64,000 bases of DNA from Desulfatibacillum alkenivorans DSM 16219. Its GTDB lineage: Bacteria; Desulfobacterota; Desulfobacteria; Desulfobacterales; Desulfatibacillaceae. A program made the position numbers and the translations under genes. Below the pieces are notes generated by a model. The model saw nothing but the letters and a program-made list of their open reading frames with translations, ran no database searches and was not told where the DNA came from. Within the stretch, counting starts at the first letter, position 1; every line of letters begins with the position of its first letter. Below are positions 1,537-32,900 of the stretch, one piece after another. Location: positions 62,001-126,000 of the forward strand of contig NZ_FQZU01000001.1 of assembly GCF_900142135.1 (NCBI RefSeq). The letters are read 5' to 3'.

Positions 1537-3126
1537 TCAAGCGTCGTACCAGTCGGGCTTCCACAAGGTGTCGATGCCGGAGAATCCCTTGAAGCGTGTG
1601 CCTTGGGTCAGGGTTCCCTTCAGATCCTTCAGAATAACCCGCATAATGGCGAAGGCGAACCACCGGTGCAGGTCCCTTCGGATGGGATGGGGCGAAAACA
1701 TGCGGCTGAAATATTGCAAAGGCTTTTTGGCCACAAAGTTTTTGTAGCACCATTGGGTGGCTTCGGCCACTTCCTCCCGGGAGCAATGATAGGTGCGCAT
1801 GGAGGGGTAGAACATGTCGAATTTTTCGAAGTTGGTTTCTTCAACCAGGCCTTCCTTCAAGGCCCAGTCGTAAAACTGAGTGCCGGGAAAGGGCTGGATG
1901 GGATGAAAGGCGGCGAAATCCAGGTTGCAGGCGTGGGCGTGCTTTAACAGGCCTTTGATGGAATCCACGGTGTCGTCGGGAAGGCCGGTGATGTAGGTGG
2001 CCTGGCGAAACACCTCGGGGTGCTTCTCGGACAGGATTCTAAAGGCCTCCTGGGTCAGGTTGTAATCCTTCAGCCCCTTGTTAACATAGTCCAGGCTTTG
2101 CTGGGAGTCGTGCTCGGCGCCCAACAGGGTGTGGCGAAATCCGGCCTTGACCATAAGAGGCAAGATCCCTTTGGCGTCCTGCTCCACCAGTTTGTCGGCC
2201 CGCACAAAGGCCCACCAACCGTCCAGTTTGACGCCTCGCCGCAGGATCTCCTCGCAGAACTCCACCAGCCAGTCGTGATCGGCGTTCCAGGTGCCGTCCA
2301 CCCAGAACAGATAGCGGACGCCGAAATCCCGGTACAGCCATTCAATTTCGTCGGCCATGCGCATGGGGCTTTTGGTCCGGTAGGCCTGATGGGAGACGTA
2401 CTTGCCGTCCACCAGTTGGGGTCTGCCTTCCTGGATGCGCCAGGAGCAGAAGTTGCAGTTTGCAATGCAGCCTCGGCTGCGTTGCACGGTGATGGCTTTG
2501 GGCCACAAATGGCCGAAGGGCTTGTAATAATCCATGCCGGCCAGGTCGTAGGCGGGCATGGGCAGATCGTCCAGATTTTCTATGAGAGGGCGGGCCGGGG
2601 TGAGGGCCGGCTCTCCGTTTTCATCCCGGTAGGCGATTCCTTTCACGGACGCGGGCTCTCCGCCGTCCCGAAGGGTGGTCACCAGATCCCGCAGGGTCTC
2701 TTCGCCTTCGTACAGAACCACGTAGTCCACGGCCTTGCAGGTATCAAGGGTCCATTGGGGCAGGGCGGTGTACATGACTCCGCCTGCTATGGTCACGGCC
2801 CGGGGCGCTTCCTTTTTCACCAGTTCAAAGGCCCGGAACCCTTCATGGTAGAATACGGTTTTCTCTCCAATGGCCACAATATCAGGCTGGGCTTCCCGGA
2901 TGTATTTTGCCAGGGACTTCCATCCCATTTGCCGCACGCAGCAATCCAGGATGGTGATGTCCACGTCCGGGACGTGCTCCCGCAGGTAGGCGGCCAGGGT
3001 CGGATAAGCCAGGGGCAGAAGAAAATTGTCGCTTTCGTTCACAATAGGCCACACGTGGCGCGGAGATCTGACAAACAGTATTTTTATGCGGGATTTTCCT
3101 TCGAGAAAATTGACCGGAATATTCAT
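1537..3126 (-). CDS. B12-binding radical SAM protein 1
   Basis: A 529-residue COG1032-type protein. An N-terminal Rossmann-like cobalamin-binding region spans about residues 1-150 (YPTLAAYLREHVPDVDITILD, then TIAGGVMYTALP and YVVLYEGEETL). I do not see a DxHxxG cobalamin ligand motif. The radical SAM core follows, with the cluster motif CIANCNFC near residue 220. A C-terminal helical region of about 100 residues holds the basic stretch SPHPIRRDLHRWF. Members of this family do methylations, ring closures or C-C bond chemistry. The substrate cannot be read here. I start at the ATG at 3126, which has AGAGGTG upstream; the frame stays open to 3168. It is transcribed away from repeats on one side and lies next to the GT-C gene on the other. 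Confidence 0.85.
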   Translation of the reverse strand: MNIPVNFLEGKSRIKILFVRSPRHVWPIVNESDNFLLPLAYPTLAAYLREHVPDVDITILDCCVRQMGWKSLAKYIREAQPDIVAIGEKTVFYHEGFRAFELVKKEAPRAVTIAGGVMYTALPQWTLDTCKAVDYVVLYEGEETLRDLVTTLRDGGEPASVKGIAYRDENGEPALTPARPLIENLDDLPMPAYDLAGMDYYKPFGHLWPKAITVQRSRGCIANCNFCSWRIQEGRPQLVDGKYVSHQAYRTKSPMRMADEIEWLYRDFGVRYLFWVDGTWNADHDWLVEFCEEILRRGVKLDGWWAFVRADKLVEQDAKGILPLMVKAGFRHTLLGAEHDSQQSLDYVNKGLKDYNLTQEAFRILSEKHPEVFRQATYITGLPDDTVDSIKGLLKHAHACNLDFAAFHPIQPFPGTQFYDWALKEGLVEETNFEKFDMFYPSMRTYHCSREEVAEATQWCYKNFVAKKPLQYFSRMFSPHPIRRDLHRWFAFAIMRVILKDLKGTLTQGTRFKGFSGIDTLWKPDWYDA

Positions 3127-3291
3127 GTCACCTCTTTTTGCGCGGGAAATCAAGCCGTGGGCGGTCAAATAGGGGCGGCTGCAACAGCCTTATTTCATTG
3201 GATCATGTTACAACAAACTATGCAGGGAGGCCCCCCACCCATGGGTTCTTCATACAACACTAACGTAAGTTTTTAAACAGTAGAATTTTTT

Positions 3292-4875
3292 CTAAGGTGT
3301 GGAATTCAACGTTTCAGGCGCTTTCTTTAAAATGCGGAATCGTCCGATCTGCTTCACCGGGACAAAGTTTTCGTCCAGATAGCGGGCCATTATCGGAGCG
3401 TAATCCTCAAAATTCCGGCCGCTGATTTTTTCCTGCCCCTTCACCCAGACAACGATGTTCACGCCGGATTTTTTTAAAAGAACCACGGTTTCATCAATAT
3501 AGGGAGGTTGGTTCCATTGCCCGGGCCAGATAATCCGGGACTTGGCCGGGTTGGGGCGCTCCGCCAGATAGTAAACCAAAGGCGCCCACGGGGCGACGAA
3601 GATGGGTTCCCCGGGATGGGTCCGGCTTTGGATTTCGGCAATCAGGGCGTTAATTTCCCGGGCGGCGGCGGGGTCGGCTGTCACACCTCCGGCCATATCA
3701 GAATCCAGGGGGGATTGGGGCGCAGGTCTGAGGGACGGCCCGGCCAAAAGCAGGCCGAACAGGGTCAGGGTGAAGGCCGCCGCCAGCATTGCTTTAAAAG
3801 GGCCAGAGAATTTTCTCAAAAGCTCCGGCAATAATAAGGCGATTCCCGGCGCAGCCAGGGGGATGAGCGGCCTTAAATGCCCTAAATCCGCTCTGGGAAA
3901 CAATGTGCCGAAAAGGCATAAAGCCAGCAAGGCGTATAGGCGCAAGGCGCCGCCGTTTTTTCGTCCTTTGCCGAAGGACAAAAGAATACAGACAAGAAGC
4001 AATACCGGGGCTCCGTAAAAGGCCAGGCCAATGCCGGAAAAATCCGGTTGGGGAGGGGCCAGGGCCAGGCCTTGCACCACGCCGCGGGCTTTGAATGGAT
4101 AAAGAATAGCCAGATTGAAAAAATCCGGCAGGCTCCCGGCAAAGGCGGAGTATATGATCCATCCCGCCAAAGGAGCGATCCAGCCGCCCAGCCAAATAAA
4201 TGGGCTCAGGCCGGACCCGCTGTTTTTCCCGGCCTTGTCCATGGCCCAAAGGGCCGCCAATCCAACTAACAGCCACACTCCGAACACCTGTTTGGTTAAA
4301 AACGCAGCCCCTCCCAAAAAACCGGAAGCCGCCGTCCAGGAGCCCCGCCCTGTTTGCTCCGCTTGAATGGCACAGCACATCGCCGCCAAACAAAACAGGC
4401 TGACGCACCAGGAGTTATGCCAGCTTACGCGCTGGACGACCGCCATGGCGGCCAGCCCCCAGGCTGTCAATCCAGCCAGGGGCGCCTCCCATTTATTCGG
4501 ATTCTCCCGCAGCATGGCAAGCCGCCGGGCGCAGGCGAAAACCAGAACCATCAGGATGGACAACAATGCCGCCCCGACTATGCGCGCCACAGCCAGGGAT
4601 TCTCCGAAAATGGCAAAAATCCAACCCAGGCCGTAATAGGATAGGGGGCCTTTGAAGTACCACACGTCTTTGTATAAATGGTCGCCTTGCGCGATCCTGT
4701 GCGAAGCGTAAACAGCGGAGCCTTCGTCGTAAAAGGCGTGGTATCCCTCGGGCGTGGACATCCCCAACGGGAGAAGCACAGCCAGGGTCAGGACGAAAAT
4801 CAGCCCATAGCCCGCCAGGCCTCCGGCGGCATTCTCCGTTCCTGTTCCGCTTTTTTTTAAGTTGCTGGGGTTCAT
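3292..4875 (-). CDS. GT-C family membrane glycosyltransferase (PMT/ArnT-like)
   Basis: A 527-residue integral membrane protein with about ten or more hydrophobic segments after a cytosolic N-terminus. The first external loop holds YDEGSAVYASHRIAQGDHLY followed by WYFKGPLSYY. This is the acidic DE plus nearby aromatic layout typical of GT39/GT83 enzymes, which use polyprenyl-phosphate sugars on the outer face of the inner membrane. A soluble tail (about 400-527) follows the last membrane segment, as in ArnT relatives. Its ATG overlaps the stop of the LAB_N gene by four bases (ATGA), so the two are translationally coupled. The sugar and acceptor are unknown. Confidence 0.75.
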   Translation of the reverse strand: MNPSNLKKSGTGTENAAGGLAGYGLIFVLTLAVLLPLGMSTPEGYHAFYDEGSAVYASHRIAQGDHLYKDVWYFKGPLSYYGLGWIFAIFGESLAVARIVGAALLSILMVLVFACARRLAMLRENPNKWEAPLAGLTAWGLAAMAVVQRVSWHNSWCVSLFCLAAMCCAIQAEQTGRGSWTAASGFLGGAAFLTKQVFGVWLLVGLAALWAMDKAGKNSGSGLSPFIWLGGWIAPLAGWIIYSAFAGSLPDFFNLAILYPFKARGVVQGLALAPPQPDFSGIGLAFYGAPVLLLVCILLSFGKGRKNGGALRLYALLALCLFGTLFPRADLGHLRPLIPLAAPGIALLLPELLRKFSGPFKAMLAAAFTLTLFGLLLAGPSLRPAPQSPLDSDMAGGVTADPAAAREINALIAEIQSRTHPGEPIFVAPWAPLVYYLAERPNPAKSRIIWPGQWNQPPYIDETVVLLKKSGVNIVVWVKGQEKISGRNFEDYAPIMARYLDENFVPVKQIGRFRILKKAPETLNSTP

Positions 4876-5195
4876 CCCGTCTCGCCTTCGGCGCGCTTTT
4901 TAAAAATGAGAGTCAGGTTGCGAAAATAGATAATTAAGCCTCCGGCCTGGCCCACAATAAACACCGGGTCTTTTTTATGAATCGCATAGGCAAGCAGAAA
5001 AACGCCTCCTGCCAGGCTCAAAAACCAAAACGCGATGGGAACGGTGCTTTCTTTTTTGATTTCACTGACGATCCATTGGAGCAGAAACCGGCTTCCGAAC
5101 AAGGCCTGGCCCAGAAAGCCCACCGTCAGCCAAAACCGCACGGATTCGGCGGAGGAAACAGCCAGTATCGAGACGTATTGCATAGCGCCGTCCAT
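4872..5195 (-). CDS. LAB_N (lipid A biosynthesis N-terminal domain) membrane protein
   Basis: About 107 residues with three or four membrane segments. SRFLLQWIVSEIKKESTVP, SLAGGVFLLAYAIHKKDPVF and GQAGGLIIYFRNLTLIFKK are signature stretches of the LAB_N family. That family is found with lipid A and glycolipid modifying enzymes and looks like a SWEET/flippase-type fold. I choose the ATG at 5195, which has ACGGAG upstream; an ATG at 5222 in the same frame lacks a good site. It ends in a four-base overlap with the GT-C gene. The 190-bp gap to the divergent GT2 gene must hold promoters for both directions. It includes the palindrome TTGTATACAA (5269-5278). Confidence 0.85.
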   Translation of the reverse strand: MDGAMQYVSILAVSSAESVRFWLTVGFLGQALFGSRFLLQWIVSEIKKESTVPIAFWFLSLAGGVFLLAYAIHKKDPVFIVGQAGGLIIYFRNLTLIFKKRAEGETG

Positions 5196-5386
5196 CGGGT
5201 TTCTCCGTAATATTTTTTGCATGGGAAAAATAGCGGAAGAAAGGCATCCCGCCCCGCACCCTCTTGATTTGTATACAATACTTATATATGTTTGAAAACA
5301 GGAGAATCCCGCCGCACCGGGCGCTCCTTTTCCTCTTTTTCACCACGGCCTTGACGCACGCATTCTTTTAAACCTGGGAGGGTTTT

Positions 5387-6136
5387 TTGCAAAAAATCAA
5401 GCTGTTGTCCATAGTCTCTCCCGCATTCAACGAGAGCGCCGCCCTGGCTCGTCTGATTCCGGAAATGGAGTCCGTCATTCCGGTTCTAAAAAAGCGGTGC
5501 GAGAAGGTGGAATGGATCGTGGCGGACGACGGCAGCACGGATAACTCGGCGAATATCCTGGATTCGGCCCCGGATTTTGTGCGGCGTTTGCCCCTGGAGC
5601 ATCAAGGAATGAGCGCGGCTCTATACGCGGGGGTCATGGCTGCGCAAGGAGAGGTGATCGCCGCCATGGACGCGGATTGTCAGAACGATCCCGCCGACTT
5701 GCCCGCCATGGTCAGCCTGCTGGAGTCCACGGGGGCGGACATGGTTTGCGGCATTCGAAACCATCGGAAAGACACGCTGGTCAAACGCTTGTCATCCCAA
5801 ATATCCAATCGAGTGCGGCGGGCGGTGTTAAAGGATACCATCCGGGATGCCGGATGCACGCTCAGGGTGTTCCGGGCGGACGTCCGCCGTCTGTGCTTCT
5901 GGCCTATTCATGGCGGGCACCGTTTTGTCGGGCCATTCGCCCAGCTTCAGGGTTTGCACGTGGTTCAGGTAAACGTGCGTCACAGGGAGCGCGTCGGAGG
6001 CCGCAGCCGCTTTGGCGTTATGGACCGGGCGCCCGCTGTGATAATGGACCTTGCCGGCGCAAAATGGCTTATGTCCCGGACTATGGCTCCCGAAGGGTCC
6101 GGCGAGGCCGGGAAAGGGGAGAACGCCCATGATTGA
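5387..6136 (+). CDS. Family 2 glycosyltransferase, polyprenyl-phosphate sugar synthase-like
   Basis: A 249-residue GT-A fold enzyme. It opens with SIVSPAFNESAALARLIPEM, then VADDGSTDNSANIL and MDADCQNDPADLP, the nucleotide-binding and DxD-type motifs of the DPM1/GtrB/ArnC group. Those enzymes move a sugar from a nucleotide donor to polyprenyl phosphate on the cytosolic face. No C-terminal membrane pair is present, so it is the short, soluble DPM1-like form. The start codon is TTG, with GGGAGGG six bases upstream. It overlaps the next gene by eight bases. It would supply lipid-linked sugar to the GT-C proteins on either side. Confidence 0.85.
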   Translation: MQKIKLLSIVSPAFNESAALARLIPEMESVIPVLKKRCEKVEWIVADDGSTDNSANILDSAPDFVRRLPLEHQGMSAALYAGVMAAQGEVIAAMDADCQNDPADLPAMVSLLESTGADMVCGIRNHRKDTLVKRLSSQISNRVRRAVLKDTIRDAGCTLRVFRADVRRLCFWPIHGGHRFVGPFAQLQGLHVVQVNVRHRERVGGRSRFGVMDRAPAVIMDLAGAKWLMSRTMAPEGSGEAGKGENAHD

Positions 6137-7973
6137 TCTTCGATCCAAAGGCGCCTGGATTCCCCATGCCCTGATGCTTATCCTGGCAGGCGCGATTTTG
6201 ACGAAAATGCTTGCCAGGCCTTACGCCTTTTGCGATGATCTGACTCACTATTTTCCCCTGCACCAGTATATAAACGGAGGGACGCCCGTTCAGACTCCGG
6301 GAGCGGAGGTCTGGGCCTCCCACTCCATGCTCGTCGGAATGAAGGTCATATTCGCCGGGCTCGCCGGTTTTTTTCAAATGCTGGGCGCAAAATACCCCTT
6401 TTTAGCCGCTTCCAAATTTTGGGCCATGCTCATGCTGATTTTGGGGTATGCGGTCTGGGTGATTTATTTAAAAAAGCCGTTAGGCGCCGCGCTTGGCGCC
6501 TGGGCTGCGCTTGCCATAGTCCTGTTCAACTGCATCAATCATATTATTACCGCCGGGCTGGTCCGCAGCAGCAACGTGGTTTTAATCGGGCTGTGGTGCA
6601 TTGCGCTGCGAAAACGATCTCCCATGGGGATCGCCCTGGTATTGCTTGCAACGTCCTTTGTATATCCCGTGGTTTTGCCGGTTTTGGGGCTGAGCCTGTT
6701 CGCCGCAACAGCCTGGGCCTGGAAGCGGAAAGAAACACTCGTTTTCCGGGCGGGAGTCCTGATATTAGGATTTCTATGCTCCATAGCCTATGTGGCGGGC
6801 AAATCCCTTTTCGGATCGCGTCTGATGGATAACCGGCCCATGTCTTTGGCCGAAATGCAAGACATCCTAAATCAGGGGGCGTTTTCCCCCAATCTGGACG
6901 TTCCCAGGCTTATTGGGCGGTTGGGCGATCAGTCCATTTTGGAGTGGTTTCAGTTCAACCTGTTCAACCATTGGGAGCCTGTCAGCAATGCATTGACCAT
7001 AGAGATAGGGTGTTGCTCTCTGGGCGTCCTGCTTGCAGGGGCTTTTTTTTTGAAAAAGCCCGCCCAGGGCCGAAGCCAGGGGGCGGCTTTAGCGCTCTGC
7101 CTGATTCCTTTTGCCGGCGGTTTTTTCGCCTTCCGGGAAATGGATTTTTTCCTGGCCGCCTGCTGGACGGCGGCCCTGGCGTCTCTGGGATACTTGTTCG
7201 CCGCCGGAGCTCAGGCGGAAAAAGCGCTTCCTTTGGAGCTTAAACTGCTCATCCCGGCTTCCGCCGTCGCGTTTTTACTGGTTCATGCCGCCTGTTACAA
7301 GTACTTCGCCCTGGTTCTGGATCCTGGCAGGCAATTGCAAAAGACCTTCGCGATCCTGGCCCCCATTTGTACGGTTTTGTTTGGGGCGGGGATGTTTGAA
7401 TATTTGAGATTGCAACGAAAAAGAGAAGTTGCGACTATCGCCGGAATAGTTCTGGCCTTGTATTCCTTTTACTCTCTGGACCTGGGCTACCTGGAATATA
7501 ATGACCAGCAGGCCATGAAAGCCCTGAAGGATCTGCCGCCCAAAGCCGAGATTTTATGTCACCCCCAGACGGCTGACATTGTGTTGATCATGGCCGGAAA
7601 GAGCGCCTCAACAGCCCATGAATTAGTGAGAATAGGGGCGCAGCCTTATACAAACAACCTGATTCAATCCTACGCCCGCGACGTGGACCTGGTATACTCC
7701 ACCAGCCCGGATAAATTAAAGGCGTGGTGCCGCCAAAGGCCGAAGAACGGATACATTTTGGCGGAGCCGGAGATCTACACTCCCCAAGAAATTGCCAGGC
7801 TGTTCGGCCCCTATAACAAGACGATGGAACAACGCCGAGGCGAGGGGTATTATTTAAACGGCGAGCAAAACCCGTGCAAAGAACTAATCGGCGCAGAGGT
7901 CAGCCTGATCCCGTGCGATTGCCTGCTGCAGGAAAAGGAGGCGGCGAGCTTCCTGTCTGAGGAAAACCAATGA
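6129..7973 (+). CDS. Polytopic membrane protein, GT-C-like, unknown acceptor
   Basis: 614 residues with about ten or eleven hydrophobic segments and a soluble C-terminal domain of roughly 150 residues. After the first membrane segment comes CDDLTHYFPLHQYINGG, an acidic pair in the first external loop like the catalytic position of GT-C glycosyltransferases. I do not recognise a named subfamily. The start at 6129 has GGAAAGGGGAG upstream; the frame is open further back but those residues lie inside the GT2 gene. The stop overlaps the following radical SAM gene by four bases. Gene order GT2, GT-C-like, radical SAM, SGNH hydrolase reads as one operon. Confidence 0.65.
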   Translation: MIDLRSKGAWIPHALMLILAGAILTKMLARPYAFCDDLTHYFPLHQYINGGTPVQTPGAEVWASHSMLVGMKVIFAGLAGFFQMLGAKYPFLAASKFWAMLMLILGYAVWVIYLKKPLGAALGAWAALAIVLFNCINHIITAGLVRSSNVVLIGLWCIALRKRSPMGIALVLLATSFVYPVVLPVLGLSLFAATAWAWKRKETLVFRAGVLILGFLCSIAYVAGKSLFGSRLMDNRPMSLAEMQDILNQGAFSPNLDVPRLIGRLGDQSILEWFQFNLFNHWEPVSNALTIEIGCCSLGVLLAGAFFLKKPAQGRSQGAALALCLIPFAGGFFAFREMDFFLAACWTAALASLGYLFAAGAQAEKALPLELKLLIPASAVAFLLVHAACYKYFALVLDPGRQLQKTFAILAPICTVLFGAGMFEYLRLQRKREVATIAGIVLALYSFYSLDLGYLEYNDQQAMKALKDLPPKAEILCHPQTADIVLIMAGKSASTAHELVRIGAQPYTNNLIQSYARDVDLVYSTSPDKLKAWCRQRPKNGYILAEPEIYTPQEIARLFGPYNKTMEQRRGEGYYLNGEQNPCKELIGAEVSLIPCDCLLQEKEAASFLSEENQ

Positions 7974-9412
7974 AGTGGCTGCTGGTGAACCCCAGGCCGG
8001 ACGAGTTTTCGGTTATGGGGAAATTCGAAAAAGTCATGGTTCCATTTATCCCCATGGGGCTTGCCTATCTGGCCGCCTGCCTGGAAGAGGCCGGCGCCGA
8101 GGTATCGGTATACGACGGATTCGCCTCGCCTGGGCGTGCTTTATTGAAGACAGCTGTTGACTATCAGCCTCAGGTCATAGGGATTTCATGCCTTACGCCC
8201 ACGGCCGACGCTTTAAAGAATATGGTTCCCGCTTTGCGGAAGGCCTGCCCCGGCGTGAAGATTGTTTTGGGAAACATCCACGCCACCTTATTCGCCAAGG
8301 AATTGCTGGAGCAGGGCCTGGCGGATTACGTGGTTCACGGAGAAGCGGAGCGAACCGTCCAGAGCCTGGACGCCTTTCTGGAAGGGAAAGGCGATTTGGA
8401 GGAGGTTCAAGGGCTGAGCTTCATCCAGGACGGCCGGGTTTGGACCAATCCCGAGCCTGAGCCGCTGCAGGACCTGGACTCTTTGCCCTTGCCGGCCTGG
8501 CGCCATTTTGACCTGGATCAATACATAGCGCCGCCTTTGTTTGCGTTCAAAAAAAGGCTGCTGCCCGTGCTGGCGTCTCGCGGATGCCCCTACAGGTGCT
8601 ATTTTTGCGCTCAAAATGTCATGAGCCCGACCCTGCGCAGGCGAGACATGGTGAAGGTGGCGGACGAAATCGAGGCGGTTCATCATGAAACCGGGGTGGA
8701 TTTATTCTGGTTTTGCGACGCCATTTTTCCTTTGACGCAAAAGGACGCTGAGGGTTTTTGCCGGGAGATGACCAAGCGGGGCCTGCATAAAAAAATCCAA
8801 TGGATTACGGAAACCCGCGTGGATCTGGTGGATCGCCCCTTGCTGCGCATGCTCAAGCAGGCCGGGCTTTCCATGGTTTTGTTCGGCCTGGAGTCCGGGG
8901 ACCAAGAGGTGCTTTCCCGGATCAAGCAGGGAGTCACCCTGGAGGCTGGCGCAAAAGCGGTGGCCGCGGCCAGGGCCGAGAGGGTAACCACCCTGGGCCT
9001 GTTCATGCTGGGCCTGCCTGGGGAAACCCGGCAAACCATGGAAAAAACCATAGCCTTCGCCCAACGCATCGGCCTGGATTTCGCCAAATTCAACCGGGCC
9101 GCGCCTTATCCTGGGTCGAAGTTTTTTGACGACGTCTATGCTGCGGGAGACCTGCCGCCCTGGGAAATGTTTTCGGCCAATTACGAGCCCAGGGATGGAG
9201 AGGGAATCGTATACTCGCCGGAAGGCGTTTCGGACGAAGAACTGGTCCGGCTGCATAAAAAGGCCTTTTTCCGGTTTTACGTGCGCCCCGGGCTGATTGC
9301 GCGGCATCTGGCATCAGGCAGGATTTCCCCCTGGAACATGGCTAAAGGAGGCGGGGTGATTGTTAAGAGTTTTTTGGAAGAGAATGCAAGGCGCTTGCTG
9401 TTCTCCAAATGA
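7970..9412 (+). CDS. B12-binding radical SAM protein 2
   Basis: A 480-residue COG1032-type enzyme. The cobalamin-binding region (about 1-150) has PMGLAYLAACLEEAGAEVSVY, GNIHATLFAKELL and YVVHGEAERTV. The radical SAM cluster motif CPYRCYFC is near residue 205, followed by the usual FCDAIFPLTQKDAEGFC and GLESGDQEVLSRIKQG strands and APYPGSKFFDD. It is translationally coupled to the GT-C-like gene. The intact sequence is the closest in-window guide for reading through the broken gene at 11887-13323, because both share the ASRGCPY-x-C-x-FCAQ block. The substrate is unknown. The operon context points to an envelope glycolipid. Confidence 0.85.
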   Translation: MKWLLVNPRPDEFSVMGKFEKVMVPFIPMGLAYLAACLEEAGAEVSVYDGFASPGRALLKTAVDYQPQVIGISCLTPTADALKNMVPALRKACPGVKIVLGNIHATLFAKELLEQGLADYVVHGEAERTVQSLDAFLEGKGDLEEVQGLSFIQDGRVWTNPEPEPLQDLDSLPLPAWRHFDLDQYIAPPLFAFKKRLLPVLASRGCPYRCYFCAQNVMSPTLRRRDMVKVADEIEAVHHETGVDLFWFCDAIFPLTQKDAEGFCREMTKRGLHKKIQWITETRVDLVDRPLLRMLKQAGLSMVLFGLESGDQEVLSRIKQGVTLEAGAKAVAAARAERVTTLGLFMLGLPGETRQTMEKTIAFAQRIGLDFAKFNRAAPYPGSKFFDDVYAAGDLPPWEMFSANYEPRDGEGIVYSPEGVSDEELVRLHKKAFFRFYVRPGLIARHLASGRISPWNMAKGGGVIVKSFLEENARRLLFSK

Positions 9413-9448
9413 GCCGTCGCCTTCCGATAGTTGGAAAGGGCTTTCTGT

Positions 9449-10387
9449 ATGAAGAATTCGCTCCTGAATTGCTGGTGGATGAAAATGCTCCTGTTCGGCG
9501 TTTGGATAGGGGGGCTTCTTATGGCGGCGGAGATCGTTGTGAGGGCGCTTTGCGATCCCATGCCCAGGATGAGCGAGTACATCCAGGCCGTGGACGACCC
9601 AAGGGGATACGCTTTGAAGCCGGATTCCCATGCGGTTTTCTCCGGCTTAAAGGAGACGTTGCCGGAACCGGTCCAATACAATATCAATATGCAAGGCCTA
9701 AGAGAGGACGGAGTAGCGCCTTTGGCTTCCCTGCCGGGAAAGTTGAGAATCGCTGCAATAGGGGACAGCGAGGTTTTTGGCTGGTCCGTGAATCAGCAGC
9801 AAACATTTCAAACCCTGATGGAGCAGATGGACGACCGGCTGGATGTCGTAAACATGGGGGTTCCGGGCTATAATGCGGAGAATGTAGGCTGCCACGCAGC
9901 AATCATGCTAAAAAGGATTCCCTGTCACGCCGTCTTATATTGGTTTAATCCCAACGATTTTTTTTCCAGGAAAAGCACCGCCTTTTTAAAGGCGCCTGGA
10001 AAAATCAAGTCTGAATTGTTGCTGCGAACAATTTTTTATTTTGATCGCTGCAAGGAAAGCAGGGAAAAAGAACGCCGGTACTCGCTGGAGCAAGTCAGCC
10101 GAGCAAAAAATGGGCTGCTTAAACTGCATCGGGTTTGCCAGGATGAACACCCCCCTCTATTTCTGGTGTTTTCCCGCCCGAAAGACTATGAGGTCCTGAA
10201 AAATGTTCCGGAACTCAAGCCGGTTTTTGTTTGCTGCAAGGTGTTATTCATTGATCAGGTGATAACCACGTTTCCACGATCTGACGGACACCTGTCCGCA
10301 GAAGGCCATAAGGCCTTGGCTAAGTTCCTGTACGAAAATGCGGCCCAGCCCCTTCTCGCTCAAGAGAATCTTTTGAGCAAATTTTAA
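9449..10387 (+). CDS. SGNH/GDSL-like hydrolase, membrane anchored
   Basis: A 312-residue protein with one N-terminal hydrophobic segment (about residues 12-32), which suggests a periplasm-facing, membrane-tethered enzyme. GDSEVFGW near residue 105 is the block I serine motif. FNPND supplies the block III asparagine, and SDGHLSAEGH near the C-terminus supplies the Asp and His of block V. SGNH enzymes in envelope loci add or remove acetyl or acyl groups on glycans. I use the ATG at 9449, which has GGAAAGGG upstream; a TTG 18 bases earlier is possible. It follows radical SAM protein 2 by 36 bases and is the last gene of this operon. Confidence 0.75.
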   Translation: MKNSLLNCWWMKMLLFGVWIGGLLMAAEIVVRALCDPMPRMSEYIQAVDDPRGYALKPDSHAVFSGLKETLPEPVQYNINMQGLREDGVAPLASLPGKLRIAAIGDSEVFGWSVNQQQTFQTLMEQMDDRLDVVNMGVPGYNAENVGCHAAIMLKRIPCHAVLYWFNPNDFFSRKSTAFLKAPGKIKSELLLRTIFYFDRCKESREKERRYSLEQVSRAKNGLLKLHRVCQDEHPPLFLVFSRPKDYEVLKNVPELKPVFVCCKVLFIDQVITTFPRSDGHLSAEGHKALAKFLYENAAQPLLAQENLLSKF

Positions 10388-10412
10388 AAGGCGAATGCCG
10401 ACAATGCCTCCG

Positions 10413-11852
10413 CTAAGCCTCGGGGGGAAAGACGGCGTCTCGGGCCAGCATGATGGCGCCGTGGGCGAGGTTTTTGATCTCCCGCAGGCTTTTTGAAGCA
10501 AACAGCCTGGACGCCATGTACCTGGGATTCATATAAAAGGAGATATAGGCGTCCTTGACCCACCGGTTTATATCTTCCATGGGGATTTCCGTAAAAGAAT
10601 CGGTTTCCAGGGGGGTTCCGGCTGCGTTGTTATTGTAGTAATAATTAAAGACGTCTTCCTGGCTCAATACGCCTTCACTGCTTTTTCGCCTGAGAAGGGC
10701 GGACAAGGGGTCGGGCATGAGCCCGGCGAACAAGGCGTAATCCGGGCGAATGCGTTCCAGCAGGTTCATGGTTTGCCTGACGGTTTGGTCCGTCTCTCCG
10801 GGCGCTCCGAACATGATGTAGACCAGGGAGCGTACGCCCGCCTTTTTTAAAGCCCGGACCGCACGTATGGATTGCTCCACGGTGACGGCTTTATTCATGG
10901 CGTTCAGCATTTTTTGCGACCCGGACTCCATTCCCAAAGAGACTATATGGCAGCCTGCCAGGGCCATGCGTCGGGCGGCTTCATAATCCAAAAGATCCAC
11001 CCTGGACTTGCAGGACCAGGCCAGGCCGGGAAAGTCCTTTCCGAGCATGTCTGTCAGTTCAAACAGCCTTTTTCGGCCCGCCGTGAATGTGGGGTCTACA
11101 AAATGCACTTCGCGGGCTTTGAATATCCGTTTGGCCCATGCGATTTCCTCCCTGACCCGTTCCACGCTCTTTTGCCGAAGGTCCCTGGACAGGCTGCAGA
11201 AGTTGCACTGCCAACCGCATCCCCTGGCCGTTTCCACCAAACAGAGCGGGGGCTTGATATTGAACGGGGGGTGCATGGAGTAGGGCGCCCTGGGCAAAAG
11301 GTCCAGGGCCGGCAACGGAAGGGAATTGGGGTCAAGCGGAGAGCCTGGAGGATTTTGCCTGACCCGGCCGTTTTCCCGCCAGATGAGGCCGGGAACCTCT
11401 TCAAAGTCCGTTTTGCTTTGGATAGCGCAAACCAATTGCCAAAACGCCTCCTCCCCTTCCCCTTTGATGAAAAAGTCGATTTCCTCTAATTTGCTTCCCA
11501 GCATTTCCGGCGGAAACACGACTCCGTAACCGCCCATGATCGTTTTGATTTCCGGGCGAACTTCCTTTAAACGCCGTATGATGGCGTGGGTGTGGGCGAT
11601 GTTGAATATGGTGGTGGAAAAGCCGACGATGCCAGGATTGCGCTTGAGAATCTCCCATAAGGTTTGATCGGTTGTATGCCGGAGCGCCACGCTGTCCAGA
11701 AGTTCGACGTCCAGCCCTTTTTCCCGCAGGTAGGCCGCCAGGGCCGCAATTCCCAAAGGCTGCATGGGCATGATTCCGCTCAGGTTGAAGCGGATGCGTG
11801 AAAGAGGGGGAGATACAATGAGAATTTTGCTGTCGCTGATCTTCGGTTTCAT
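10413..11852 (-). CDS. B12-binding radical SAM protein 3
   Basis: A 479-residue COG1032-type protein. The N-terminal cobalamin region reads PLGIAALAAYLREKGLDVEL and IMGGYGVVFPPEM. The cluster motif CGWQCNFC is near residue 215, followed by HFVDPTFTAGRKRLF and SLGMESGSQKMLNAM. The C-terminal helices (about 400-479) include FYMNPRYMASRLFASKSL. I take the ATG at 11852. A TTG at 11909 would overlap the preceding radical SAM gene by 23 bases, which also shows how tightly the two are packed. Convergent with the SGNH gene, with only 25 bases between stops and no clear terminator. Confidence 0.82.
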   Translation of the reverse strand: MKPKISDSKILIVSPPLSRIRFNLSGIMPMQPLGIAALAAYLREKGLDVELLDSVALRHTTDQTLWEILKRNPGIVGFSTTIFNIAHTHAIIRRLKEVRPEIKTIMGGYGVVFPPEMLGSKLEEIDFFIKGEGEEAFWQLVCAIQSKTDFEEVPGLIWRENGRVRQNPPGSPLDPNSLPLPALDLLPRAPYSMHPPFNIKPPLCLVETARGCGWQCNFCSLSRDLRQKSVERVREEIAWAKRIFKAREVHFVDPTFTAGRKRLFELTDMLGKDFPGLAWSCKSRVDLLDYEAARRMALAGCHIVSLGMESGSQKMLNAMNKAVTVEQSIRAVRALKKAGVRSLVYIMFGAPGETDQTVRQTMNLLERIRPDYALFAGLMPDPLSALLRRKSSEGVLSQEDVFNYYYNNNAAGTPLETDSFTEIPMEDINRWVKDAYISFYMNPRYMASRLFASKSLREIKNLAHGAIMLARDAVFPPEA

Positions 11853-11886
11853 AATAATGACTGCGCCTGGAGACTGCAGAAAGATT

Positions 11887-13323
11887 TCAGGAACGAAAAA
11901 AGGAATCAAACATGCTAAGCATCATGGCTTTAAACCCTTTCCACATGACCTTGGGGGAAAGGGAGCCGTTTTTCAGATGATGGACTATCTTGGATGGCCG
12001 GATCCAGAAAACGGCCATGGCAAGATGCTGCAACTTAAGCAACTCCTTTTGGGTCATATTTTCCGGCACATGCAGCAGACTGTCCCCCTTTTTGGGGAAG
12101 AACCAGGCGCTGAACTTGTGGTATTCCAGGTCTTCCGTTTTTCCGTCCCACCAGGAGTCAAAGAACGGGGTTCCCGGATAAGGCACGGCTATGTTGAATT
12201 TGGCGAAGTCCGGGTCCAGTTCCTTGGCGAAGCGAATGGTGTCCCGGCAGGATGCCGCCGTTTCTCCCGGAAAGCCGAGCATAAAGAAGGCGCAAGTGGG
12301 AATGCCGGCCTTTTTTGTCAATGCAATGGCTCGCCTTGCATCTTCCAAATGGAATTTCTTTCCAATGTTTTTAAGCGTTTGCTCGTTTCCTGACTCCACG
12401 CCGTAGGCTATTTGTATAATGCCGGAGTCCTTCATGGCTTTCAATAGTTCCGGTTCCGCCATGTCCACGCGCATTTCCGTAATCCAGCAGGCTTTTTCCT
12501 GAAATCGTTTATCAATGAGGGCCTGGCAAAAATCCAGCCCCATTTTTTTGTTAAGCGGAAACATACAGTCCGCAAGTCCCGTCATGGTCACCCCAAAGCG
12601 GTCCACCAGATAACCCATCTCATCCACGACATTTTCGATGCTCCTGACGCGCACGTTCTGGAACGGGGAGGCCTGGGCGCAAAAAAAGCAGCTATAGGGG
12701 CAACCCCTGGATGCAATGACAGGAAGGGATATCCCCGATACCCCAAAGAGGGGATGTCATTCGTAAAGATGGTATGGCAATAAGTGCCAGGCTGGATACG
12801 GTAAATCATCCAGGTCCGCAATTTGTTCCACGGGTCCTGTCTGAACGCATTGACCGTGATCCGGAAAACTGAGTCCGGGAACGGCCTCCGGGGAAGCCCC
12901 GCACTCCAAGGCTTGGGCCAGGCTGGCCATGGCCGATTCCCCCTCCCCATGGACGATGAAATCGCCGATATTTTTGTTGAGCAGGTACTCATGAAAGGCC
13001 CATGCGTGGATATTGCCGAGCACAATTGCAGCCTGGGGGAGGTCTTCGCGTATGAGAGAACTTAAAATTTCCACCGAAGGCATGGCGGCGGTCAGGCAAG
13101 AAATTCCCACCATCCTGGGCCGGAAGTCTCGCAACAATGAAATGGTTTGCCGGGCAGTCAGTTTTTGGGCGAACTGATCAATGACCAACACCTCATGCTT
13201 GTCCCTTTCCAAAACCGCGGCGATATAGGCCACCCCAATGGTGGGAAAAGGCGTCATGGTGTCGGAGTATCGGCCCAAAAGATCCTTCCGGCCGCTTTCC
13301 GGTATAATGAGGGCAATTTTCAA
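11887..13323 (-). pseudogene. B12-binding radical SAM protein 4, interrupted by an in-frame TGA
   Basis: Reading one continuous frame gives a complete COG1032-type protein of about 480 residues except for one TGA at 12757-12759. Before it lie the cobalamin-binding half and the linker DLDDLPYPAWHLLPYHLYE. After it come HPLFGVSGISLPVIASRG and the cluster motif CPYSCFFC (near residue 211), then GLADCMFPLNKKMGL and YGVESGNEQTLKNIG. The spacing matches protein 2 residue for residue, so only the one codon is abnormal. No ATG, GTG or TTG lies between the TGA and the cysteine motif, so restarting translation could not rebuild the iron-sulfur site. A recent nonsense mutation or sequence error is most likely; readthrough is possible. 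The start is uncertain: TTG at 13323 (before KIALIIPESG) or TTG at 13398. Confidence 0.75.
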
Positions 13324-13513
13324 AACAGGGACCCTGGCCAATGATTTGGATTGTTGAATCTCAGCAATTGTTCCACCCAATTCCCCTCTATAATACAATA
13401 CAGGCTTGATTGAAAACCCAAATTCCGATAATTATTGTCTAACCGCTATTTTTCATTGCCTTAGATTGTGTAGCGATTCCCGGCCTAAAGAATTTTCCTG
13501 GAAAGGCGACTTA

Positions 13514-14824
13514 ATGATTCTCTATGTTCATCCGGACTCCAAAATGATGCTGCGTTGTATCTTGCCTATGTCGCTTCCTGCGGTAATCAACAGGATTGAT
13601 GCGCCTGTTTTGGGGCGCTATCATGACGAGTGGACCAAGTATGAGGTGCGGCGAGCGGACGTCATTATTATGGATATCCACTGGTTCACTGCCATGAAGT
13701 CCGCTATTGAACTTTCATGCCGATTTAAAAAGATTAATCCAGAGGCGGTGATTATTGCAGGCGGCGTCTCGGCGTCCGTGTTCAGGAAACAGTTGTTAAG
13801 GGATTCCAAAATCGACTACTTGATTAGAGGGGACGGGGAAATACCTTTGGCCGAGTTTGTCAGAATATATCAAGAGGGCGGGGACCTATCTTTGGTTCCC
13901 AATCTTGCATGTAAGGATTGGGAGTCTGAAAACCAATACTCCCTATCCAAGGAAGATTTCGACGCCAACGATTATCGCGACATTTCGTTTTTTCCATCTC
14001 TAAAAAAAATTTTGTTGAGATTGCATAAAACCTGTAATGGGAAGGCTTACCCTACTTATCCCCATTTGATGGTCTTCCGGGGATGTCCCCTGCATTGCCA
14101 CTGTTGTTACGGGACCCCTGAAAATCAAAAAAGGGTGTTTGGCAGGTCCTGGGTGGTTCGTTCGCCTGAAAGGATTAGGGATGACCTCAGGGCATGGAGC
14201 AGAGCGCCTTCCATTCAATACCTGAATATTTTTCATGAGTTCACGGGAACCATGCCCATGGACTACACCAGAACCGTATTGAGTGAAAACTACAATCTTT
14301 TCATTGCATGGGACATAGTGGTCCCTCCATCTAAAGAGGCCTTGGAACTCCTGACCCAATCTTTCTTAGGAGGGGCGATCCAATTTTCCCTGGACGCCAG
14401 GCATACTACCTCGCAAAAGTTGGAATCCGTTGAATTGCTGATAGATAGGATTCGCCAGGTTCAAAAGACCAAAAGGTTCATGGTGCGTCTGTGCTATGCA
14501 AAGAGGTTTTTGGACGCCTCGCCTGAATACGCCCGAGCCCTGCAAAACGTGCATAAAGCCACCAATTGCGCTCTTTGCAGAACCGACTCCTGGTGGGGAG
14601 ACGACCTGGAACCCAACCCAAACGGATTATGCTCCGAAATGCAGTATCAGCAATGTTTAAAGGATACGGGGAAATATTCACTATGGAATATGATGTACAG
14701 CACTGGCGTTGCGACGCATGCACGGCTTCCCAATTTCACCCAAAAAACATCGGAAATCATATACAACCATCTGGGAGATTCTTTTTTTCTCAAAAAACTG
14801 ATTGCCGGGAAGCATCCTGATTAA
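13514..14824 (+). CDS. B12-binding radical SAM protein 5, divergent
   Basis: A 436-residue protein. The first part (about 1-150) has a Rossmann-type layout with VIIAGGVSASVFRKQLL and YLIRGDGEIPLAEFV, as in cobalamin-binding COG1032 proteins. The cluster motif CPLHCHCC near residue 192 fits C-x3-C-x2-C with an extra cysteine. Beyond that the sequence departs from the other radical SAM proteins here: there is no clear GxESG strand, and a cysteine pair (NCALCRTDSWWGDD) lies near the C-terminus. The ATG at 13514 has GGAAAGGCGAC upstream. It is divergent from protein 4, and by eye its codons are more A/T-rich than its neighbours. Confidence 0.7.
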   Translation: MILYVHPDSKMMLRCILPMSLPAVINRIDAPVLGRYHDEWTKYEVRRADVIIMDIHWFTAMKSAIELSCRFKKINPEAVIIAGGVSASVFRKQLLRDSKIDYLIRGDGEIPLAEFVRIYQEGGDLSLVPNLACKDWESENQYSLSKEDFDANDYRDISFFPSLKKILLRLHKTCNGKAYPTYPHLMVFRGCPLHCHCCYGTPENQKRVFGRSWVVRSPERIRDDLRAWSRAPSIQYLNIFHEFTGTMPMDYTRTVLSENYNLFIAWDIVVPPSKEALELLTQSFLGGAIQFSLDARHTTSQKLESVELLIDRIRQVQKTKRFMVRLCYAKRFLDASPEYARALQNVHKATNCALCRTDSWWGDDLEPNPNGLCSEMQYQQCLKDTGKYSLWNMMYSTGVATHARLPNFTQKTSEIIYNHLGDSFFLKKLIAGKHPD

Positions 14825-14843
14825 AATAATAGTTTCAGCGAAT

Positions 14844-16292
14844 TTATTTTGAAAAAATTTCCGGCGAGATTTCCAGAACGCCGGTCGAGCTTCCTGTGTA
14901 AATACGATCTGTTGCAGGGGAGTAGCACACACAGCGCAGCAAAGGGCCTACCTCCAACTCCCCAATTTTTTCCCCGCTGCCTAAATCGTAGACTTCCAAC
15001 TCCCCTGAAAAATATTTGGCTACGTATATCCAGTTTCGCATGGGGTCATAGTCCAGGCACCGAATCCCAAACCCGGTGTATATTTTTCTTTTTGTCTCCA
15101 GGGTTTCAGAATCCAGGATCAATACGCTGAACGCGCCGTTAGTCGCAACCTCGTTTTGCTTGACAATGGGAACCGTCCACATTCCCAACAACAGGAACCT
15201 TTCAGCCTTCAATTCCAACGGCCTCATGCTTATGGAGTATAGGCGCCATGGAAAGGAAGGCGCGTAAATTCTGTTTAGCTCCTGGCTAAAGGAAAAGTGG
15301 TTATAAATTCCCCATGAAGCTGAGGTGAAACTATTCTCAACCTTATTGCCCTCCCCAAGTGTGAATATGTCGCCTTGAAAGGTGCAAACATATTTTTGCT
15401 CCCCTATGGCGCTTCCTATCCTGAATCCATTAAAAACCGGACTCTTTTCCCCATTCAGAGCATTGCCGAAAGGAATCTCTCTTTGCATGCTCATATCTTC
15501 AACGCGTACTTCAAACATTTTTCTGTTTGGAGGGCTATCGTAAAAACTGCCGGTATAGAGTTTTTTATTGTCCGGCGAGAGAAAAAAGAAAGGGCGGCGC
15601 CCTCCTTCTCGAAAGAAATATTGAAGCGAGTGCGTTTTCAAATTAATCTTATCAATTCGCTTACGGCGTTCGTACGAGATGAGAACGGCATCGTTTTCTA
15701 TAACGTGAATCATATAGGGATCAAATCGTTTAACAAGTTCCGTTTCACCCATTGGGTAGATGGCCTGAAAACCATCTTCCATTGGAAGGCTCTTTGCCAA
15801 CCAATTTACTCCAGGACGTTCCAGGCCCGCTCTGTCCCATTTTTCCCGGTCCATATCGTCGTAGGACAAATGCCCCAGGTTAGGGAAAGAAAACAAAGCA
15901 ATCAGGAAAACAGCAAAATTTATTAAGGAAAAAACATTGAAGCCGATGCGTTTCCCTTTTCGTCTCATGACCGCTTTCAAGAAGATAAAAACGCTGATGG
16001 AAGCCGCCAGGAATACGGCTCCCCAAAGCGGGGAGCCTATGAACAGAAAGGCCATTATCGAGTAGGAGAAAAACGCACATGAAAAATATGCTATTGCTGG
16101 AATTTCTTTAATAATGAGTATTTTGCTGAGTTTGGATTGATGCACGACAAACGCTAACACTAACAAAAAAATCAGATCTAAAACTGTTTCCTCCCAACCG
16201 GCAGCAGCCATCTCCTTTAAGACGAATAGAAAAACTGCTGTAGAAGCGGTAAGGATGAAAAGATATCTGATGATGGATTTAACTATCCTCAT
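14844..16292 (-). CDS. Membrane protein with predicted C-terminal beta-propeller
   Basis: 482 residues. The first 150 residues hold about six hydrophobic segments. The remaining 320 are soluble and built from repeated beta-type units such as FFLSPDNKKLYTGSFYDS, DYDPMRNWIYVAKYFSGELEV and CYSPATDRIYTGSSTGVLEI. These resemble the YVTN/WD-type blades of a propeller, probably outside the membrane. The ATG at 16292 overlaps the stop of the radical SAM gene by four bases; a TTG at 16310 is less likely. It is the last gene of a UbiA, radical SAM, propeller operon. The family is not recognised. A sensing or scaffolding role is a guess. Confidence 0.65.
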   Translation of the reverse strand: MRIVKSIIRYLFILTASTAVFLFVLKEMAAAGWEETVLDLIFLLVLAFVVHQSKLSKILIIKEIPAIAYFSCAFFSYSIMAFLFIGSPLWGAVFLAASISVFIFLKAVMRRKGKRIGFNVFSLINFAVFLIALFSFPNLGHLSYDDMDREKWDRAGLERPGVNWLAKSLPMEDGFQAIYPMGETELVKRFDPYMIHVIENDAVLISYERRKRIDKINLKTHSLQYFFREGGRRPFFFLSPDNKKLYTGSFYDSPPNRKMFEVRVEDMSMQREIPFGNALNGEKSPVFNGFRIGSAIGEQKYVCTFQGDIFTLGEGNKVENSFTSASWGIYNHFSFSQELNRIYAPSFPWRLYSISMRPLELKAERFLLLGMWTVPIVKQNEVATNGAFSVLILDSETLETKRKIYTGFGIRCLDYDPMRNWIYVAKYFSGELEVYDLGSGEKIGELEVGPLLRCVCYSPATDRIYTGSSTGVLEISPEIFSK

Positions 16293-17293
16293 TCCCCTGC
16301 GCTCCTCCAACCTATAGTTGCTTGTCTCAAGGCGTCATAAATGGGGAGCAGTTTTCCCGAAAGAAGGTTGCTGAGCTCCACATAGGGATAGATAAAGCAC
16401 CCTTGGCAATCCGTCATGGGCATTCGCCGGAACGCTTCAACAAATCCCAAATCTCTCCCCGAGGGCGCGGCGTCCACGCCCAGGTTGACATGACACCGGC
16501 AGACCTGGCCCGAAGGAGTGACGAATCCTCCGTACAAGCCTAATTTGCATTGGGCCTTTTCAATGGTTGCGTTGGGGTATCGCATTAAGGATTCCAGGTA
16601 AGATCTTGAGCAGCAAACGGGCTTGCCCCGCCTTTTGGCCGCCTGTAAAAAACGCACGCCCCTTTTGAACTCGTCCAAATCAGGAAGCATGCTTGCCGCC
16701 TTTCCGGAACTGACAGCGCAGGGAGTAACGGGCTGAAAAAAGCATTGGGCGCCCATGTCTTCCGACAGGCGAAGTACATGCGGGATTTGATTTGTATTGT
16801 CTTTGGTCACGACCATGGCGAAGATCAGCTTCTTCCCAGCCTTGAGCACGGCCTCTCCCCCCTGGACGGCCCCGGCATAGGCTCCTTGCCCCCTGAGACC
16901 GTCATGAACCTCTTGGTTTCCATCCAGGCTGATCACCGCCGCGTCCACCCATTTTAAAAGATCCTTCCTTTCCGGAAGAAGCAGGCCGTTGGTGTTCAAA
17001 GTGACCAGGGCGTTGCCATGGGCCGCCTTAAGCAGCCGGTCAAGGTCCTGCCGCAAAAGAGGCTCGCCTCCGCTGAACCCCATGCGCAGAGTTCCCGCCT
17101 GTAAAAAAGCATGGATGGCTTCCAGCCATTGGTCTGCGTCCATTTCGTCGGAGGGCAGATCCGGAAAGCCGCAATAGGCGCAACGCAGGTTGCATCGATG
17201 GGTGACGATCATGCCAATGGAGGCGGGGAAGCGCCTTCCAAGAACTCTGGCTGTCATCAGCCTGGCAAGCGAAATGGGCGTCCGCCTTTTCAC
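16289..17293 (-). CDS. Radical SAM protein with SPASM-like C-terminus
   Basis: 334 residues. The cluster cysteines C34, C38 and C41 sit in HRCNLRCAYCGFPDLPSDEM. They are followed by MGFSGGEPLLRQDLDRLL, the GGE motif that contacts SAM, and VISLDGNQEVHDGLRG. The C-terminal part (about 240-320) carries further cysteines (CKLGLYGGFVTPSGQVCRCH and DCQGCF), as in SPASM or twitch domains that bind extra clusters. Unlike the neighbours it has no cobalamin domain. It overlaps by four bases both the UbiA gene upstream and the propeller gene downstream. Relatives include PqqE-type and HpnH-type enzymes. The UbiA neighbour favours a lipid or quinone-like substrate. Confidence 0.85.
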   Translation of the reverse strand: MKRRTPISLARLMTARVLGRRFPASIGMIVTHRCNLRCAYCGFPDLPSDEMDADQWLEAIHAFLQAGTLRMGFSGGEPLLRQDLDRLLKAAHGNALVTLNTNGLLLPERKDLLKWVDAAVISLDGNQEVHDGLRGQGAYAGAVQGGEAVLKAGKKLIFAMVVTKDNTNQIPHVLRLSEDMGAQCFFQPVTPCAVSSGKAASMLPDLDEFKRGVRFLQAAKRRGKPVCCSRSYLESLMRYPNATIEKAQCKLGLYGGFVTPSGQVCRCHVNLGVDAAPSGRDLGFVEAFRRMPMTDCQGCFIYPYVELSNLLSGKLLPIYDALRQATIGWRSAGE

Positions 17294-18207
17294 ATCACCC
17301 CCTCAAGCCCGCCTCGAAGCACCCACAACACCAGGAGCCCAAGGCCCAGAATAATGTTCGAAAACCGGAAGAAAAGGCGCATTTGTGCAAGGTCCCTCTC
17401 TCGGGAGTACAAGCTCATCAACCCTATTTCAAAAACTGAAATCGCCGAGATTAAAAGCGCATCCCCCGCCATGAGATATCCGGGCCAAAAACCAATCCAT
17501 CCAAGCAAAGCGCGAAACAGGGCCAAAAGCCTCATGCACCCGATGGTTTTATTCTTTCCCGCTTTCACGGCCACTGTTTTAACGCCAGCCTTTAGGTCGC
17601 TATCCCTGTCCTGAATTTCGTGGGCCAATTGGGGTATCAATATGCTGGGGCAAAAAACAAGAGCCATAAAAAGGCCGCCATTAGCCGTCCCCCCTGAAGC
17701 CACCATGCCCAGCGTAAAAATGGGTATGAAGATCAGACAGTTCGTCAGACTTCCGGCGATGAAAATCCGTTTAACCTGAACCGGGCCGGAATATAGCCAG
17801 GAAGCCAGGTACATGCCCGTTGCAAGCAGGCCCGCGGGAACGGATACCAGCCAGGAAAGGACCCAGCCTGCAAGGCCCGCCGACAGCGCCAAACAACGGG
17901 CTTGGTTTAAGGGAATGCGGCCTGCCGTAATCGGGTTTTTCGCCGGAGCGTCCAGTTCTCTGTCAAATAAATTGTTGTAGCCGTATGTGAAAGAAAGGTA
18001 GGCGCAGCAACAGCCGAACCCTGCGTAAAAGGCAGCGGTCATGGGAATTTTTCCGGCGGCGTACACCGCTCCCAGCAGGTAAAGCCCCAGAAAATGGACC
18101 CAACCTCCCACTCTAAAAAGGTTCAATACACTGAAGAGCGCTTGCATGGCATTCCCCAGGCGGGAGCCCAAAGCAGGGCTTTGGGCGGGCGCGGCGTGTG
18201 CTGGCAT
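17290..18207 (-). CDS. UbiA-family prenyltransferase
   Basis: A 305-residue protein with about eight or nine membrane segments. The two Asp-rich prenyl-diphosphate/Mg binding motifs are present: NNLFDRELDAPAKNPITAGR and HEIQDRDSDLKAGVKTVAV. The family transfers prenyl chains onto aromatic rings, heme or glycerol phosphate within the membrane. No aromatic biosynthesis genes are nearby, so a lipid or carrier acceptor is as likely as a quinone. I choose the ATG at 18207 because GGAGGGGG stands directly upstream; an ATG at 18261 adds 18 residues without a ribosome site. First gene of the operon with the SPASM-like radical SAM and propeller genes. Confidence 0.88.
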   Translation of the reverse strand: MPAHAAPAQSPALGSRLGNAMQALFSVLNLFRVGGWVHFLGLYLLGAVYAAGKIPMTAAFYAGFGCCCAYLSFTYGYNNLFDRELDAPAKNPITAGRIPLNQARCLALSAGLAGWVLSWLVSVPAGLLATGMYLASWLYSGPVQVKRIFIAGSLTNCLIFIPIFTLGMVASGGTANGGLFMALVFCPSILIPQLAHEIQDRDSDLKAGVKTVAVKAGKNKTIGCMRLLALFRALLGWIGFWPGYLMAGDALLISAISVFEIGLMSLYSRERDLAQMRLFFRFSNIILGLGLLVLWVLRGGLEGVM

Positions 18208-32786: not shown

Positions 32787-32900
32787 ATAGTTCTCCATTG
32801 CCTCTTCCATCAAAATACTTGTGGAGAGGATACGTTTATATTGAGGCGCAGACGCCTTGCAAAAAGCCTGTTAGCAGGCGGCGCGGAATTCCACCCTGTA

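Follow-up and report, generated by a model that had tools for sequence, protein, structure and literature searches.

The DNA analysed here (the window) is a stretch of 64,000 nt from Desulfatibacillum alkenivorans DSM 16219 (assembly GCF_900142135.1, contig NZ_FQZU01000001.1, positions 62,001–126,000 of the forward strand). Reading of its open reading frames (ORFs), combined with domain searches, identified a block of 13 genes, denoted g1–g13, within positions 1537–18261. One of them, g9 (11887–13323, minus strand), encodes a B12-binding radical S-adenosylmethionine (SAM) protein of 478 residues with an in-frame UGA, a candidate selenoprotein. An earlier interpretation of the DNA (the sequence-only reading) had described the block as a B12-radical SAM cluster making an isoprenoid or glycolipid product, and had missed the UGA of g9, the most informative feature of the block, as well as the transmembrane (TM) propeller protein encoded by g11. 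Domains were assigned by Pfam and NCBIfam searches with curated cut-offs, and folds by AlphaFold and Foldseek. The closest comparison was provided by a second genome of the same genus, Desulfatibacillum sp. MAG7 (G001; contig JAEINP010000029.1), which is an independent metagenome assembly.

The g9 gene consists of two ORFs on the minus strand, 12757–13398 and 11887–12654, linked by a single in-frame TGA at 12757–12759 (codon 189), the proposed selenocysteine (Sec) codon; a standard gene caller breaks it into two wrong genes. The TTG start at 13323 aligns with the GTG start of the congeneric orthologue, and the TGA lies 19 residues ahead of the first Cys of the CxxxCxxC motif (CPYSCFFC). The G001 orthologue has a TGA at the identical codon, with the same flanking sequence, and since that assembly is independent, a sequencing error is ruled out. 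Between the two genomes, the Nei–Gojobori dN/dS ratio was 0.114 before the TGA and 0.046 after it (289 codons), with dS above 1, and there was no indel over the 478 codons. The frame downstream of the TGA is thus under stronger constraint than that upstream, and g9 is not a dead gene. An in-frame UGA within a conserved coding frame and kept in another species, as expected of a selenoprotein, was therefore found. Among approximately 115 places resembling B12-binding radical SAM genes in six genomes, an in-frame TGA occurred only in the two g9 copies. The g9 orthologue in another genome, G075, was considered as a third Sec gene and rejected, because its one TGA falls upstream of the start.

The region around the UGA is conserved at the nucleotide level. 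At conserved residues, synonymous identity between the two genomes was 54% gene-wide, compared to 21 of 22 codons at the UGA, which is the highest stretch of the gene (p = 0.001 for this 22-codon peak by scan permutation). A putative bacterial selenocysteine insertion sequence (SECIS), the hairpin GGGGUAUC-GGG-GAUAUCCC (12726–12744, minus strand), starts 12 nt 3′ of the UGA and is identical in both genomes. The published rules for bacterial SECIS elements specify a loop of 3–9 nt, a stem of 4–16 bp, a G in loop positions 1–2, a distance of 16–37 nt from the UGA and an energy of −7.5 or lower (PMC13188914, Fig. 2). The g9 hairpin, with its 3-nt loop, 8-bp stem, loop-initial G, apical loop 20 nt past the UGA and −8.9 kcal/mol, lies within all of these bounds. 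Synonymous recoding, in place of a folding z-score over a longer stretch, was used as the null for the hairpin: only 0.6% of the synonymous recodings of the g9 peptide passed the rules and 0.3% equalled the g9 hairpin in strength, compared to 6.2% and 3.1%, respectively, of random codons. The hairpin is built from less common codons (GTA, TCG, GGG and ATA).

The host has the machinery for Sec insertion, with SelA, SelB, SelD and tRNA-Sec all present. An in-frame TGA is present also in the SelD gene of both Desulfatibacillum genomes; the hairpin after it has an 8-bp stem, a spacing of 17 and a loop that reads GGG in the genome of the window and GGA in G001. The formate dehydrogenases of both genomes have an in-frame TGA and hairpin of the same plan. 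The resemblance of these genes to g9 lies in the UGA and the short hairpin, SelD sharing the 8-bp stem and the GGG loop; the proteins themselves are different, and their Sec is catalytic or metal-bound, with Cys homologues (PMC13188914).

The g9 product has a B12-binding domain and a radical SAM domain with CxxxCxxC, the arrangement of class B type radical SAM enzymes, although a B12-binding domain alone is no proof that the predicted enzyme uses cobalamin. Its AlphaFold model (pLDDT 91.4) matched AprD4 best in Foldseek, followed by TsrM, MgmA, OxsB, CysS and TokK. The position of residue 189, in the motif Y-E-U-H-P, corresponds to the linker that connects the radical SAM barrel to the B12-binding domain, and Tyr187, two residues before it, is invariant in an alignment of 33 sequences. 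The g9 orthologues in genomes G008 and G075 have Ala at the Sec site (GCC and GCA, respectively); the g6 paralogues have Ala or Thr at the matching position, and further homologues have varied residues. In the tree, a g9 clade (support 100/99) splits into the two Sec-bearing sequences on one side and the two Ala-bearing ones on the other. G075 has SelA, so its Ala form did not simply arise from losing the Sec system.

Several observations weigh against Sec insertion at this site. Cys was found at the Sec position in none of the inspected homologues, whereas Cys homologues, a supporting rather than defining criterion, exist for nearly all known selenoproteins (PMC13188914). Replacement of the catalytic Cys by Ser, Asp or Glu has been described for selenoprotein homologues, with no mention of Ala (PMC1242214). 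The remaining window sizes in the permutation gave weaker results (p from 0.008 to 0.14), and folding of a longer context after the UGA produced another minimum-energy hairpin arrangement with a z-score that was not significant. The Ala orthologue in G008 also has a hairpin that passes the model (−12.9 kcal/mol, spacing 36), showing that the hairpin test, taken by itself, lacks specificity. Lastly, the SECIS is without compensatory changes because only two TGA-bearing genomes are known. Viral contigs searched by pattern for the SECIS DNA gave no match.

On balance, we consider it probable that g9 encodes a selenoprotein, with its internal UGA decoded as Sec 189. As far as can be judged from sequence, the gene carries the hallmarks of a bacterial selenoprotein and departs from them only in its lack of Cys homologues. 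In the proposed mechanism, g9 would be one continuous cobalamin-type radical SAM enzyme, with the hairpin 12 nt past the UGA and the host SelA, SelB, SelD and tRNA-Sec directing the insertion of what we infer to be Sec at residue 189. Failure of Sec insertion would leave only the 188-residue B12-binding part, making the output of full-length g9 dependent on selenium. Sec 189 might then act in redox chemistry or bind a metal, close to the iron–sulfur centre or the cobalamin.

Readthrough of the UGA by a near-cognate tRNA or a suppressor, inserting for example Trp, would involve no Sec and give little full-length protein. A C after the UGA makes for a leaky stop context, and the presence of Ala rather than Cys in the orthologues might mean that a small or arbitrary residue is tolerated at this position. 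However, readthrough leaves both the nucleotide-level constraint and the SelD-like hairpin unexplained, and Trp was absent from the Sec site among the inspected homologues; we regard this alternative as unlikely. We give very little credence to the idea, implied by the two ORFs that standard gene callers read, that the B12-binding and radical SAM parts are made as independent proteins. The stretch from the TGA to CxxxCxxC holds no ATG, GTG or TTG, so that a separate second protein, starting past the motif, would be devoid of the iron–sulfur site, and the g9 orthologues and g6 are single chains. Least credible of all is the view of g9 as a pseudogene, disabled by a nonsense mutation and passed on to both species. 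An internal stop without Cys homologues might suggest this, but it does not fit a dN/dS of 0.046 past the stop at saturated dS, an indel-free frame of 478 codons and a peak of conservation within the gene around the stop.

The other genes of the block are organized with g9 into at least five oriented units: g3-g2-g1 (minus), g4-g5-g6-g7 (plus), g9-g8 (minus), g10 (plus) and g13-g12-g11 (minus). Numerous neighbouring genes overlap by a few bases. The other four B12-binding radical SAM proteins are encoded by g1 (1537–3168, minus), which is conserved more widely than any other gene of the block; g6 (7970–9412, plus), a paralogue of g9 that has no internal stop; g8 (10413–11909, minus), whose start overlaps the end of g9; and the divergent g10 (13514–14824, plus), with a weaker best match to TIGR04190 (79 bits). 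The g10 ORF opens at 13406, and the ATG at 13514 matches the start of the orthologue. All five proteins retain CxxxCxxC. In the tree, g6 and g9 are related paralogues at 37% identity, while g1, g8 and g10 form separate lineages, in agreement with the proposal of the sequence-only reading that these genes are not simple tandem copies; at the least, they are not recent ones.

Pfam and NCBIfam bore out its count of five B12-binding radical SAM genes, along with one SPASM-like radical SAM gene (g12, 16289–17293, minus; best solved relative PqqE), a UbiA-family prenyltransferase (g13, 17290–18261, minus), a glycosyltransferase of family GT2 (g4, 5387–6136, plus) and a small LAB_N membrane protein (g3, 4872–5222, minus; PF07578, 110 bits). 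The g13 protein scored 98 bits against PF01040 (gathering score 34.2) and has the two Asp-rich motifs of the UbiA superfamily (NNLFDRELD and DRDSD); its nearest solved relative is digeranylgeranylglyceryl phosphate synthase. The GT2 resembles polyprenyl-phosphate sugar synthases, its best NCBIfam match being ArnC-like at 95 bits (cut-off 529). Two GT-C-like proteins had also been named. One of them, g2 (3292–4875, minus), is a PMT_2-type GT-C membrane glycosyltransferase (PF13231, 31 bits; cut-off 26.1). The other, g5 (6129–7973, plus), which overlaps g4, is a polytopic membrane protein with 13 predicted TM helices that is GT-C-like by layout alone; it has no Pfam match and a poor AlphaFold model (pLDDT 37), leaving its GT-C identity unproven. 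Similarly, the supposed SGNH hydrolase, g7 (9431–10387, plus), has the GDS/N/DxxH motifs of an SGNH/GDSL protein, but its GDSL match is below the cut-off and the assignment is weak. The previously overlooked g11 (14844–16310, minus) encodes a membrane-anchored protein with 4–5 TM helices and β-propeller-like repeats; in G001 this gene has a tandem duplicate (L004 9077–12123), with 67% identity between the copies. A long-chain acyl-CoA ligase gene (18509–20182, plus) adjoins the block in both Desulfatibacillum genomes and probably lies outside it. Rfam and tRNA scans of the window gave zero matches. Elsewhere in the window, another B12-binding radical SAM gene, not part of the cluster (31197–32813, minus; BchE/HpnJ-like at 210 bits, below the cut-off), is found beside type II secretion/pilus-like genes, and a large secreted protein (51809–54709, minus) resembles, by eye, acylases of the penicillin-amidase family.

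G001 is collinear with the window across the 13-gene block, whose order and orientation it retains, and across the flank on each side. Identities between the two are 75–87% for g1, g6, g8 and g9, about 70% for g3 and g4, and 42–59% for g2, g5, g7 and g10–g13, and dN/dS was 0.07–0.22 for the block genes for which it could be calculated. This gene-by-gene conservation shows that the genes are real; as evidence for functional linkage, conservation of the block in two congeneric genomes is weak. At least four genes of the block had been expected to stay together among relatives, an expectation that holds for the whole block within the genus, whereas only small blocks were found beyond it. UbiA (g13) had no counterpart beyond the genus among 389 genomes of the class, nor did g8 among 379.

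Strong relatives of g1 (clade support 97/86) occur among the 389 class genomes in three other families of the order, represented by G075, by G014, G386 and G292, and by G168. The g6–g9 pair recurs in G008 and G075. The g6 orthologue in G008 (L048 333–1685, plus) has an in-frame TAG, likely an assembly error, on a contig with a coverage of about 1.2. In G075 the homologues of g9, g6 and g1 are direct neighbours, and nearby are GT-C-like genes, a DegT aminotransferase and, within a few kb, a single ORF (L052 12401–14446, plus) in which an N-terminal GT2 is fused to a C-terminal radical SAM domain. The fusion is a possible Rosetta-stone link between functions of the g4 and g12 types. Near the same cluster, L052 4529–8830 (plus) encodes a 1433-residue activase of the BadF/BcrA type with DUF2229, resembling CoA-dehydratase activators. 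Three genomes, G014, G168 and G292, have a gene for a g11-related protein with five TM helices and a β-propeller-like region directly after the g1 homologue (L093 1848–3386, L095 1032–2564 and L096 434–1972), and the homologue in G014 also has GT9, DegT and additional radical SAM genes after it; the one propeller protein that was scanned, that of L093, had no Pfam match. G399, which belongs to another class, has an array (L099 2814–19626 and L100 1–8076) of at least 11 genes for B12-binding radical SAM proteins, spread over about 31 kb together with polytopic GT-C-like membrane proteins. Two genes of the array are of the g6/g9 type, and a g1-like gene in it is convergent with a gene of this type.

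Because UbiA is confined to the genus, its pairing with B12-binding radical SAM genes is not a conserved one, and the isoprenoid product of the sequence-only reading rests on genus-specific adjacency. A link to glycosyl transfer is a little better supported, given the recurrence of B12-radical SAM arrays beside GT-C, GT2 and GT9 genes and the GT2–radical SAM fusion in G075. It is plausible, though somewhat short of an even chance, that the genes around g9 assemble a lipid-linked sugar or a surface glycoconjugate, by way of the GT2, LAB_N and GT-C genes, and alter it by B12-radical chemistry. The UbiA product is possibly the lipid part of the same compound, an association seen within the genus alone.

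A more inclusive reading, which we hold only tentatively, makes the whole 17 kb one pathway, in which a UbiA prenyl lipid is modified by the five B12-radical SAM enzymes and by glycosyltransferases. It would account for the retention of the 13-gene order in two genomes whose genes have diverged to 42–87% identity, for the recurrence of B12-radical SAM arrays with GT-C and other glycosyltransferase genes in other families, and for the similarity of UbiA to digeranylgeranylglyceryl phosphate synthase, its closest solved structure. However, UbiA and g8 were not found beyond the genus in the class samples, the genes form at least five separately oriented transcription units, and the partners that recur elsewhere (g1, g6/g9 and the TM-propellers) do so without UbiA. 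An equally doubtful alternative is that the block is a Desulfatibacillum-specific neighbourhood of unrelated B12-radical SAM enzymes, hitchhiking together with no common product. The genome does have more than 20 places resembling B12-binding radical SAM genes, and the full block is known from the two congeners only, but g6–g9, and g1 adjoining a gene of the g6/g9 type, turn up again in further families and in a second class, which speaks against this alternative.

A speculative scenario is that Sec was gained in g9 at a site where no known relative has Cys. It would represent an interdomain Sec, possibly a cobalt or iron ligand or a radical relay, in a class invisible to searches for Cys/Sec pairs, and would sit within a recurring, undescribed envelope cluster of B12-radical SAM, glycosyltransferase and TM-propeller genes.

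The 2026 inventory of selenoproteins contains 119 families and subfamilies (PMC13188914, Table 1), with no entry for a B12-binding radical SAM protein of the g9 type, and our search of the literature gave no relevant result on Sec in enzymes of the cobalamin radical SAM type. TIGR04167 (rSAM_SeCys) and NF045646 (TrsS) are radical SAM selenoproteins (PMC13188914), and neither was among the best 25 NCBIfam families for g9. AprD4, TsrM, OxsB, TokK, CysS and MgmA share the overall fold of the g9 model (Foldseek E-values from 2.5e-26 to 1e-18) at 16–22% identity, and we know of no Sec in any of them. BchE (TIGR02026) and HpnJ (TIGR03471) are among the best NCBIfam models for g1, g6 and g9, but the scores (181, 193 and 230 bits, respectively, for BchE, cut-off 481; 138 for g9 with HpnJ, cut-off 578) are far too low for membership. 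The ladderane cluster family TIGR04072, a B12-radical SAM family named for lipid biosynthesis, likewise does not include g1, g6, g8 or g9 (110 bits for g9 and 106–124 for g1, g6 and g8; cut-off 360). A further parallel is NF040546, the radical SAM (seleno)protein family with a CUAEP/CCAEP tail, which has an architecture like that of the B12-binding radical SAM proteins and is annotated as a selenoprotein. At 57 bits (cut-off 500) g9 is not a member, and none was found over the cut-off in the six genomes. By its name, NF040546 has Sec in the CUAEP tail, where it pairs with Cys, whereas the Sec of g9 would be in the interdomain linker, with Ala in the orthologues. With Ala in place of Cys in its relatives, g9 is out of reach of the principal computational approach to discovering selenoproteins. 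A Sec in this linker would offer a concrete test of what selenium contributes to B12-radical chemistry, and would tie that chemistry to an uncharacterised envelope cluster that has related forms in other members of the phylum, where about 31 kb can hold at least 11 B12-radical SAM genes.

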